From: Candidatus Polarisedimenticola svalbardensis
GTDB taxonomy: Bacteria > Acidobacteriota > Polarisedimenticolia > Polarisedimenticolales > Polarisedimenticolaceae
DNA length: 38,176 nt
Assembly (NCBI GenBank): GCA_014764515.1
Contig: JACXWD010000029.1
Location: 1-38,176 of the forward strand
Reading direction: 5' to 3'
Position numbers and translations under genes: made by a program
In this document: one piece after another, positions 24,753 to 32,084 of the stretch
Position numbering within the stretch: the first letter of the stretch is position 1
Layout: the number at the start of each line of letters is the position of its first letter
Notes under the pieces: model-generated
Told to the model about the DNA's origin: nothing
Database searches by the model: none
The model's input: the letters and a program-made list of their open reading frames with translations, nothing else

Positions 24753-27191
<2,439 letters not shown>

Positions 27192-28458: not shown

Positions 28459-29607
28459 CTACAGAAGGTGCATCGGCATGACGATGTACCGGTAGTCCGT
28501 GTTTCCGGACGGTTCAGGCCGTAATTGCCCCGGCTTGTCGCCGGCGGTGCCGCTGGGGCCCTCGCCGCTCTTGACAGGATCCAGCTCGAGGAGAACGTTG
28601 TCGGTGCCGACCACATTCAGAAAGTCCTGGAAGTAGCGGGCGTTGAAACCGATCTCCACGCTTTCTCCGTCATATTCCACCGGCAGCGATTCCTGGGCGT
28701 TGCCCATGTCCGACTCGTAACTCAATTCCAGCTTTCCTGAAGAAAGGGCGAACCTCACCGCCTTGCCGTAGCGGTCGCTGGCCATGAGCGCAACGCGGCG
28801 AACCGCCGACAACAGATCGGCGGTAGGCACCGGCACGGAAATGGCGCACGCTTCAGGCATGACGTTCTCATAGCTTGGGAACGGGCCTTCGGGAATGGTG
28901 GAAACCAGCTCGTGGCCGGCCAGGCGGAAGAAGACATGGTTCCCCTTCATGCCGAACTCGACCTTGTCGTCGTCTCCGAAATCGGCGGACAGCTTCAGGA
29001 CCTCGGCCAGCGCCTTCCTGGGGACGATGACCTGAACCCCCGCTTTGGGTACGTCCAGTTTCATCTCCTGGTGGCAGTAGGCCAGGCGGTGGCCATCGGT
29101 GGCGACCAGGCAGATCCCCGACGACTCTACTTTCAGAAGGGCGCCGTTCAGAGAGTATCTGGGATCTTCCATGGTAATGGCGAACGATACCCGTTCCACC
29201 ATGGATCGAAGAACCTTCCCCGGCAGACTCACCGGCACCGAACCGAGTTCAGGGAAATCAGGGAAATCGTCCGCCAGCTGTCCGGCCAGTTTGAACCTGG
29301 AGCGCTCGCAGGATATCGCCATCTGATTGTTGTCCCGAAGTTTGAACTGAACCTCGGCATCCGGCAGGGATCTGGATATCTCCAGCAACTTGGCCGCCGG
29401 CAAGGTGATGGTGCCGTTCTGAACAACCGTCGCCTTGACCGCTCCCCGGATATTGACTTCCAGGTCACTGGCCCTGATGTGCAAACCATCTTCCTTCGCT
29501 TCAAGGAAGAGATTGGAAAGAATCGGAAGGGTCGCCCGTTTTTCAACGACCCCTGCGATGGTCTGCAATTCGTGAACGAGATCGTTCTTTCGGATCACGA
29601 ACTCCAT
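28459..29607 (-). CDS. dnaN: DNA polymerase III sliding clamp (beta)
   Basis: 382 residues, three repeated clamp folds. N-terminal MEFVIRKNDLVHELQTIAGVVEKR and C-terminal YRYIVMPMHLL are typical. A Gly/Pro-rich stretch of about 25 residues (from PVKSGEGPSGTAGD) sits just before the last beta strand, where many DnaN have a short loop; this loop is next to the partner-binding pocket. ATG at 29607, with AGAAGGA before it. Preceded by the putative oriC gap, followed 12 bp later by recF. Confidence 0.97.
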   Translation of the reverse strand: MEFVIRKNDLVHELQTIAGVVEKRATLPILSNLFLEAKEDGLHIRASDLEVNIRGAVKATVVQNGTITLPAAKLLEISRSLPDAEVQFKLRDNNQMAISCERSRFKLAGQLADDFPDFPELGSVPVSLPGKVLRSMVERVSFAITMEDPRYSLNGALLKVESSGICLVATDGHRLAYCHQEMKLDVPKAGVQVIVPRKALAEVLKLSADFGDDDKVEFGMKGNHVFFRLAGHELVSTIPEGPFPSYENVMPEACAISVPVPTADLLSAVRRVALMASDRYGKAVRFALSSGKLELSYESDMGNAQESLPVEYDGESVEIGFNARYFQDFLNVVGTDNVLLELDPVKSGEGPSGTAGDKPGQLRPEPSGNTDYRYIVMPMHLL

Positions 29608-29855
29608 GTTTGGTCCTTCTCTCTTACTATCCGTTCAAGATATTCATGAAAGGATAAAGATAGTAGTAACAGTAGCAGGGTGGAAACTGCGCAAAACCGA
29701 ACAAGCACCCTGTTTGCAACCGGTTGTCAAAATGGACCGTTGCGGACGATCGGTGGAAGACTTCCAGGTTTTCCACGCCTTCCCATTCTTCCTCACGATC
29801 CGGATATTGTCCACAATCTATCCACCCACACACCTGTTGAAGGTGCGGATAACGT
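29608..29855. other. Putative replication origin (oriC) in the dnaA-dnaN gap
   Basis: 248 bp. In order from dnaA to dnaN: CTATCCACC (29818-29826), TTGTCCACA (29807-29815), TTTTCCACG (29769-29777), then on the opposite strand TCTTCCACC (29760-29752) and GTTTCCACC (29687-29679), all sharing the TCCAC core of the DnaA box TTATCCACA. Directly after the last box come six triplets of DnaA-trio type (29661-29678) and an AT-rich stretch (29632-29660). This is the same order as in the B. subtilis dnaA-dnaN origin module. A further TTATCCGCA lies on the minus strand inside the dnaA 3' end near 29844-29852. Confidence 0.7.
29661..29678 (+). other. DnaA-trio-like repeat (6 triplets)
   Basis: TAG TAG TAA CAG TAG CAG: each triplet has a central A and five of six end in G, matching the 3'-(G/A)A-N-5' trio that directs DnaA onto single strands. 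It abuts the box at 29679-29687 on one side and the AT-rich stretch on the other. Confidence 0.6.
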
Positions 29856-31208
29856 CTACAGTTCCTGTTCGAAGCTTTCCAGGAGCCGCTTGAATTCGCT
29901 GTCCTTCTTTTTCCGGAGCTCTATCTTCTGTATGGCGTGGATAACCGTGGAGTGATGTTTGCCACCAAACCTGCGCCCGATTTCCGGCAGGGAACAGTCG
30001 GTCAACTGCTTGCACAGGTACATGGCGACCTGCCTGGGGAAAGCGATCCGCTGGCTGTTGTTCTTTGATTTGATTTCGGGGTTTTTCAGGTTGTAATAGT
30101 TGCACACCACTCGCTGGATCTGTTCCACCGTCACCGAGGGAGAATCCGGCGCCAGGAACTCCTTGAGGGTCTCCCGGGCCAGGTCCAGATCGATTTCCCG
30201 GCCGGTCATGGAGCTGTAGGCGATGACCCGTATCAGGGCCCCCTCCAGCTCGCGGATGTTGGAATTGCAGTTGGAGGCGATGAACAGGGAAACGTCGTCC
30301 GGGACCTTGGCCCGTTCCGCCTCCGCATTCTTTCTGATGATCGCCACCTTGGTTTCCAGATCCGGGGGCTGGATGTCGGCGATAAGGCCCCACTCGAACC
30401 GGCTGCGCAGGCGCTCTTCCAGGGTCGGGATGTCCCGGGGCGGAACGTCGCTGGTGAGGACGATCTGCTTGCCGCCGTCGTACAGAGCGTTGAAGGTATG
30501 GAAGAACTCCTCCTGGGTGCGCTCCTTGCCGGCCAGGAACTGGATGTCGTCGATAAGAAGGAGGTCGATGTTGCGGTACTTGTCTTTGAACTCCAGCGAC
30601 TTCTCGAACCGGATGGCGTTGATCAGCTCGTTCATGAACTGTTCCGACGACAGGTAGACCATGCTGGCTGCAGGGTTCCGCGCCCGCACCTGGTTGCCGA
30701 TGGCCTGCATCAGGTGGGTCTTGCCCAGGCCGACCCCACCGTAGATGTACAGCGGGTTGTAGTTATGGGTCGGCTTGTCGGCGACGGCCATGGCGGCGGC
30801 GTGGCTGAACTGGTTACAGGACGACACGACGAAGGTGTCGAACGTGTACCGTACGTTAAGCCTGGGCTGGTTGTTGGCGACGGCGACCGGAGGCTGGACC
30901 CGCCCGGTGCTCACCGGTTTCTTCTCCCGCCGCGTTCCGGTTTTCGTCTGGGCCGGCCCCTCAGGCATGAAACGGACCGACAGGCCGGGCCGCTTCAAGT
31001 CTTTTAGAATATTTTGAATTATTCCGTTGTAATTGGTTCGTAGCCATTCGGCGAACCAGCTGTTGGGGACCCGGACCGAGAGACTGGACGGGTCCTCGCT
31101 GATGAAGCGGGTCGGCCGGAACCAGGTGTTGTACGAGTGGGTGTTGACCCTGGTGCGGATGCGCTCCAGGATCTGGTTCCAGGTATTGGTTTCCGTGGTC
31201 GATTCCAA
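29856..31208 (-). CDS. dnaA: Replication initiator DnaA
   Basis: 450 residues from TTG at 31208. Domain I starts at once (TWNQILERIRTRVNTHSYNTWF), a variable linker spans about 80-115, the AAA+ domain follows (Walker A GGVGLGKTH at about 157-165; Walker B LLLIDDIQF; arginine finger region RLRSRFEWGL), and domain IV has the DNA-binding signature GGKHHSTVIHAI. TTG at 31208 is preferred because GGGAG lies 9 nt upstream and domain I begins there. The alternative GTG at 31292 would add 28 residues with no conserved content and would place coding sequence over the inverted DnaA-box pair at 31270-31289. Confidence 0.97.
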   Translation of the reverse strand: MESTTETNTWNQILERIRTRVNTHSYNTWFRPTRFISEDPSSLSVRVPNSWFAEWLRTNYNGIIQNILKDLKRPGLSVRFMPEGPAQTKTGTRREKKPVSTGRVQPPVAVANNQPRLNVRYTFDTFVVSSCNQFSHAAAMAVADKPTHNYNPLYIYGGVGLGKTHLMQAIGNQVRARNPAASMVYLSSEQFMNELINAIRFEKSLEFKDKYRNIDLLLIDDIQFLAGKERTQEEFFHTFNALYDGGKQIVLTSDVPPRDIPTLEERLRSRFEWGLIADIQPPDLETKVAIIRKNAEAERAKVPDDVSLFIASNCNSNIRELEGALIRVIAYSSMTGREIDLDLARETLKEFLAPDSPSVTVEQIQRVVCNYYNLKNPEIKSKNNSQRIAFPRQVAMYLCKQLTDCSLPEIGRRFGGKHHSTVIHAIQKIELRKKKDSEFKRLLESFEQEL

Positions 31209-31269
31209 GGCTTGAATCTCCCGGTCCGCCCCATCTGCGACGGTGATCGAACGCCTAGTTGCCAACAGG

Positions 31270-31289
31270 TTATCCACACGTGTGGAAAA
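31270..31289. promoter_or_regulatory. Inverted DnaA-box pair upstream of dnaA
   Basis: TTATCCACA (31270-31278, perfect consensus) and TTTTCCACA on the minus strand (31289-31281), two bases apart, forming a 14-bp perfect palindrome core TCCACACGTGTGGA. Position 62-81 bp before the dnaA TTG suits autoregulation of dnaA and origin binding. Confidence 0.85.
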
Positions 31290-31292
31290 CAC

Positions 31293-31866
31293 CTACAGCA
31301 GCTAAATATCACATTTACATAACCTTCTGATCACGGCTCCAGAACCGTGCCCAATAGTTATGTTAACTTCCATTGGTGAATGCTGTAAGTTAATGATTTT
31401 AAAAGGACTTGCTGCGATGACAATGGTGCTGGTCACAGCTCCAAAGCCCCCACCTGGCCTGCTGTGGGCAGACCGGCCATTGGTCCGAAATGAATTGTGC
31501 CGACCCGTGCCGAGTCGAAGAGACGCGTGAGATTAACACACGCTTTCAACCCTGTTCAACGGCGAAAAGTGTCGCAAGGGTGCAACATTCAAACTGCACC
31601 CCTAAAGCCGCCCAGTCTTCTTGTTGCAGACAAAGATTTTAGGGTCTGCAGGCCGGCGGCCGATCCTGCTGAAAATAATTTTCAGCAGGGTGGTGAATCT
31701 CCCGTATCCGGCTCCCGGCGCGCACTACCGGAAGTCCTTCCAGGTCTCTGGAACGGTGGAGTGACAAAAAACGGAACATGGCGTCCGAGCATGACCGGCG
31801 CGGATCCGGATTGGGTAATTTCAATATAATATGCAATGTCCCCATTTTGGGCCGGTGGGGTGATGC
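31293..31866. other. Non-coding region between dnaA and rpmH with hairpin array
   Basis: No supported gene in about 570 bp. It begins AT-rich (31305-31410), suited to dnaA control or a second origin segment. A series of inverted repeats follows: GGGTGCA/TGCACCC (31578-31601), TGCAGAC/GTCTGCA (31625-31650), a 25-nt perfect palindrome with 12-bp arms (31665-31689) and TTCCAG-GTCT-CTGGAA (31738-31753). They are evenly close and not followed by U-runs. Could be a structured RNA, origin architecture or operators. I could not match any known RNA family. Confidence 0.5.
31665..31689. repeat. 25-nt perfect palindrome
   Basis: CCTGCTGAAAAT, central A, ATTTTCAGCAGG: 12-bp arms with a single central base, the strongest dyad in the dnaA-rpmH gap. 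It does not match parS or dif as I know them. Confidence 0.75.
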
Positions 31867-31949: not shown

Positions 31950-32084
31950 ATGAAGCGTACGTTTCAACCGAACAACCGGAAGCGTCACAAAAAGCACGGC
32001 TTCCTGAGTCGCATGAAGAGTAAGGGAGGCAAGTGTGTCATTGCCAGGCGTCGGCGGAAGGGACGGAAACGCCTCGGAGCGTAG
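31950..32084 (+). CDS. rpmH: Ribosomal protein bL34
   Basis: 44-residue, very basic large-subunit protein, starting [20 protein letters not shown] and ending [11 protein letters not shown], as in the family. ATG at 31950; GAGGG lies 9 nt upstream. It heads the rightward origin run and has a near-consensus promoter. Its 3' third overlaps the start of rnpA in another frame by 50 nt and contains the rnpA ribosome-binding site. Confidence 0.97.

Follow-up and report, generated by a model that had tools for sequence, protein, structure and literature searches.

A predicted DnaA-trio unwinding region between dnaA and dnaN in an uncultivated branch of the Acidobacteriota

Where does a chromosome of this lineage, an Acidobacteriota member of subdivision 22 and a relative of Acidobacteria bacterium Mor1 (likewise subdivision 22, and the family member with a complete genome), open for replication? 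The window, by which we mean the whole analysed stretch of 38,176 nucleotides, contains dnaA and dnaN, and the two gene calls bear out an intergenic gap of 248 bp at positions 29608-29855. The genes recF, gyrB, and gyrA are found on the dnaN side of this gap, and the dnaA side has rpmH (plus strand, around position 31950) and jag. A preliminary description had placed an origin unwinding module with DnaA-trios in the gap. Judged from the sequence, the gap is very probably the DnaA-dependent unwinding region of the chromosome origin, and we put the probability of this reading at about 0.9. The direct observations behind it concern the sequence and its geometry, its rarity and conservation, the GC skew at the family level, and the residues of the DnaA protein.

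The genome consists of 180 contigs, and skew was read from the relative Mor1 in 20-kb samples. In Mor1 a change of sign falls within 3.4-4.0 Mb, an interval that also contains dnaA (3.665 Mb) and the local cumulative minimum (3.69 Mb). The reverse change is near 0.7-1.0 Mb, about half a chromosome from dnaA. The skew minimum of this complete genome was thus within about 25 kb of dnaA, so that the skew check proposed for the locus was passed at the family level and location at the chromosome origin holds on Mor1. The cumulative skew minimum of the window itself is at position 29928.

All five DnaA-box-like sites with a TCCAC core that had been described in the gap were recovered at identical coordinates, and the features of the locus are collected in Table 1. 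A further box, TTTTGCGCA, was absent from the earlier list and makes GTTTCCACC the second box of a tandem. Each of the two has 3 mismatches to TTATCCACA and 2 to the phylum box TTTTCCACA; the latter is the consensus of the gap boxes across the phylum (82 of 102 TTNTCCACA sites, with TTATCCACA found 8 times). TCCAC occurs five times in the 248-bp gap, where 1.03 occurrences are expected from the window average. Box density alone is nevertheless not decisive, because gyrB (window 26727-27150) packs up to seven TCCAC/GTGGA cores into 248 bp, a cluster denser than the origin gap. Density was therefore rejected as stand-alone evidence. The gyrB cluster is probably due to chance in coding sequence.

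Table 1. Features of the dnaA-dnaN locus, with positions in the window
Feature	Position	Strand	Evidence or remark
dnaN	28459-29607	-	TIGR00663, E 3e-83
AT-rich stretch from trios to dnaN, proposed melting region	29608-29660	-	low stability of 29634-29673
Five DnaA-trios, CTA CTG TTA CTA CTA (dnaA strand)	29661-29675	-	sequence, rarity of box plus array, phylum-wide conservation
Spacer CTG between box and trio 1	29676-29678	-	aligns with variable GC-rich spacers
Trio-proximal DnaA box GTTTCCACC	29679-29687	-	TCCAC core; 3 mismatches to TTATCCACA; identical in sister genome
Tandem upstream DnaA box TTTTGCGCA	29688-29696	-	CTTTCCGCA in sister genome; 12 bp before trio 1
Box-like site TCGTCCGCA	29741-29749	-	TCCGC form; kept in sister genome
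Box-like site TCTTCCACC	29752-29760	-	TCCAC core; kept in sister genome
Box-like site TTTTCCACG	29769-29777	+	TCCAC core; kept in sister genome
DnaA box TTGTCCACA	29807-29815	+	TCCAC core; 1 mismatch; TGTGGA core retained throughout the order
Box-like site CTATCCACC	29818-29826	+	TCCAC core
DnaA box TTATCCGCA	29844-29852	-	TCCGC form; 1 mismatch; identical in sister genome
dnaA	29856-31292	-	TIGR00362, E 1.3e-170; longest ORF 478 aa
Inverted box pair TTATCCACA-CG-TGTGGAAAA	31270-31289	.	architecture shared by all nine order genomes

On the dnaA strand the last part of the gap reads ...TTTTGCGCA GTTTCCACC CTG CTA CTG TTA CTA CTA TCTTTATCC..., followed by dnaN. The strand of the trios that would be bound is the plus strand of the window, 3'-GAT GAC AAT GAT GAT-5'. 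The six contiguous trio-type triplets reported earlier (29661-29678) are present, but their interpretation as six trios touching the last box was given up. Five trios and a 3-bp spacer are better supported, because alignment pairs the box-adjacent CTG with the GC-rich, variable spacers of the relatives, which in the order genomes are GAG(C), GCG, CCA, and CGA, and the conservation of trios across the phylum spans five positions.

The trios and boxes were expected to be kept in relatives, and alignment bore this out: they are present in the sister genome and, in varying form, at the level of order and phylum. The whole gap is 87% identical in the sister genome. Across 48 bp that begin at the end of the tandem box, take in the trios, and run past them, a single base differs, and it changes trio TTA to TTT with the middle base unaltered; the tandem upstream box differs at two bases. 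In eight of the nine order genomes a box precedes trio 1 by 12 bp; in the remaining one, G003, a perfect box is situated 3 bp from trio 1. The middle T of trios 1, 3, and 5 is found in all nine, whereas trios 2 and 4 vary.

For the phylum, gaps were anchored on the box and the first trio only, and 50 of 101 were kept, many yielding no strict anchor. In these 50 gaps the middle base is T at 75% of trio 2-5 positions, compared with a background of 26%, and the figure drops to 32% at trio 6. The array is therefore one of five trios, since the excess of middle T ends at trio 6. The fair background is the 26% T of the gaps; null sites from Mor1 (11% T) come from DNA of 67% GC and are unmatched in composition. 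The counts are made noisier by some wrong automatic anchors; in L030 and L057, for example, the gap contains a better array at another position. About 40 anchored gaps from the Acidobacteriota have box and trios at a matching position. In some other families of the phylum (L019, L119, L129, L135, and L142) the dnaA-dnaN gap is just 25-100 bp, which leaves no room for a basal unwinding system (BUS) between the two genes, and the unwinding site must be elsewhere.

The box pair that had been noted upstream of dnaA was correctly described and is unique in the genome. All nine order genomes have an inverted pair ahead of dnaA, its arms 2 bp apart; in Mor1 one arm has diverged. In each of these genomes box clusters are thus present on both sides of dnaA, as is required of a bipartite oriC. 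The earlier suggestion of a bipartite origin is plausible at the sequence level because the upstream pair is kept throughout these genomes; the pair could equally be a site of dnaA autoregulation. The B. subtilis bipartite origin likewise has boxes on both sides of dnaA and trios on one side only. Compared with the bipartite origins of B. subtilis and Helicobacter pylori, the upstream part here consists of one palindromic box pair, and its replication role is putative. The pair lies inside the longest dnaA ORF, which opens with GTG at 31292 and overlaps it (window 31206-31292). From homologous starts in the order, the real start of dnaA is more likely the TTG at 31208 (450 aa), and the pair would then precede the gene by about 60-80 bp. 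A TTTACATAA motif is also kept in the rpmH-dnaA gap of the order (L033-L039); it may be part of a divergent promoter or a further binding site.

Melting could in principle begin at this pair and its AT-rich surroundings (31290-31480), upstream of dnaA, with the origin at this locus and the trio-like array secondary. The conserved pair is indeed closer to the box consensus than any gap box, and a low-stability segment is present at 31363-31402 (z 4.0). However, no trio run was found in the sequence on either side of the pair, and the box-plus-trio motif is confined to the dnaA-dnaN gap, so that we consider upstream melting improbable.

The 40-bp segment at 29634-29673 is the second least stable of the window (z 4.6), the least stable being 30994-31033, inside dnaA. 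The conserved block is situated some 55-70 bp ahead of dnaN, a normal distance for a promoter, and might be taken for a dnaN promoter or leader element with an incidental likeness to trios. This is more improbable still: no sigma-70-like promoter was found in the block, and conservation tracks the triplet pattern and the box geometry across the phylum.

Six consecutive [CT]T[AG] triplets occur once in the window when both strands are searched. A box followed after 0-6 nt by at least five [CT]TN triplets is likewise confined to a single site in the 38-kb window, the one in the gap. A strict pattern, defined as a box (up to 3 mismatches allowed), a spacer of 3-4 nt, CTA, and four [CT]TN triplets, was found in 0 of 30,000 Markov-simulated gaps. 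A search of the 3.69-Mb genome for TCCAC-N3-6 and five subsequent YTD triplets gave two matches, namely the gap site and a poor one, CTGCTTTTGCTTCTT, and the reversed control of this pattern gave no match. The bare array CTACTDYTDCTDCTA had one match in the genome compared with three for its reversed control. The array by itself is not rare, but the combination of box and array is, and the significance rests on this combination. A chance coincidence of boxes and triplets would gain from the weakness of permissive definitions, from a box density equalled in gyrB, and from a bare array that, in this genome, is not the rarer of the two when set beside its reversed control, but the simulated gaps under the strict definition and the position shared by the anchored Acidobacteriota gaps make it the least credible explanation, with a probability close to nil.

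The DnaA protein was aligned to B. subtilis DnaA in the BUS structure (8btg; PMC10721633). Asn187, Ile190, Ile193, Lys222, Glu223, Glu228, and Arg264, the last being the arginine finger, are identical. Counted against this agreement are the substitutions of Arg202 by Lys and of Asn196 by Glu. The aligned residues have been reported for capture of trio bases (PMC10721633, PMC8287927). Most single-strand binding residues of a BUS-type DnaA are hence present, with the Arg202 and Asn196 equivalents substituted.

Taking the B. subtilis mechanism as a model (PMC6669920, PMC10721633), we infer how binding, melting, and helicase loading would proceed, and what part the upstream pair may have. DnaA would bind the tandem boxes (29696-29679) as double-stranded DNA, and the oligomer would extend over the 3-bp spacer onto the five trios, from 29675 to 29661. 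Neighboring protomers would then capture trio bases on one strand (window plus), two bases per trio. The duplex would be expected to melt into the AT-rich stretch preceding dnaN, where the helicase would be loaded. The remaining gap boxes, and perhaps the inverted pair 5' of dnaA too, may raise the local concentration of DnaA.

The earlier claim that order and strand match the BUS of B. subtilis was upheld: box, GC-rich spacer, trios, low-stability stretch, and dnaN follow one another as they do there. Specifically, the incC BUS of B. subtilis (DnaA-box#6/7 and trios; PMC6669920, PMC10721633) shares with the present locus tandem co-oriented boxes, a short GC-rich spacer, trios of the 3'-GAT-5' type with equivalent strand placement with respect to the boxes, a third trio of the AA type, and placement between dnaA and dnaN. 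The differences are that five trios are found here and six there, that both boxes here are weak matches, that the phylum box is TTTTCCACA, and that some relatives have CGN trios with a middle cytosine. A relaxed first base at trio 3, as in trio 3 of B. subtilis, was rejected as a general feature: p was 7e-5 over 43 loci, but the median p was 0.28 with one locus per family. The signal is possibly one of shared ancestry.

BUS modules have been predicted in 1755 of 2070 bacterial origins (85%) with a search rule of at least three NAN trios no more than 16 bp from a box, the better box having at most 2 mismatches (PMC8287927). The gap has five consecutive trios with a middle adenine on the bound strand, and two correctly oriented boxes are within range, GTTTCCACC at 3 bp and TTTTGCGCA at 12 bp, the latter distance falling within the published 10-13 bp peak. 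The boxes, with 3 and 3 mismatches to TTATCCACA, exceed the limit of 2 for the better box, and the published program with the E. coli box might miss the module. That limit is a rule of the search program and not of the mechanism. Acidobacteria are unmentioned in the main text of the survey (PMC8287927). Among the papers searched, with PMC8287927 covered by its main text, none joined 'Acidobacteria' and 'DnaA-trio'. The module is the already published BUS, here in the Acidobacteriota. With about 100 comparative gaps, the box-plus-trio module is extended to a phylum absent from the main text of that survey, and the locus offers a base-level, testable prediction of the site of chromosome opening for an uncultivated branch of the phylum.

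CGG or CGA trios (dnaA strand) occur in Mor1 and in further relatives (G005-G008, G016, G110, G217, G224, and G249). They raise the possibility that Acidobacteriota origins are five-trio BUS modules in which some trios naturally have cytosine for adenine at the captured middle position, a reading that we hold only tentatively and regard as rather doubtful. Where a locus has a single non-T middle base on the dnaA strand, that base is A in 9 cases, G in 8, and C in 1. A being as common as G, with only C rare, counts against the middle-cytosine reading; the overall excess of G has a p value of 0.049. An amine rule, allowing only A or C in the middle, was not established from this natural variation. 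Should the middle-cytosine trios be functional, they would parallel in nature what was found in B. subtilis, where cytosine beats guanine and thymine as a substitute for the middle adenine, and motif searches demanding adenine would miss them. The five trios, the middle-cytosine trios, and the 12-bp box spacing would together be an evolutionary read-out of the captured bases that DnaA tolerates.

The box-recognising helix in the C terminus of DnaA (window 29856-30120) reads KHH[ST]TV in most Acidobacteriota loci; the same helix is RDHTTV in the DnaA proteins of E. coli and B. subtilis.
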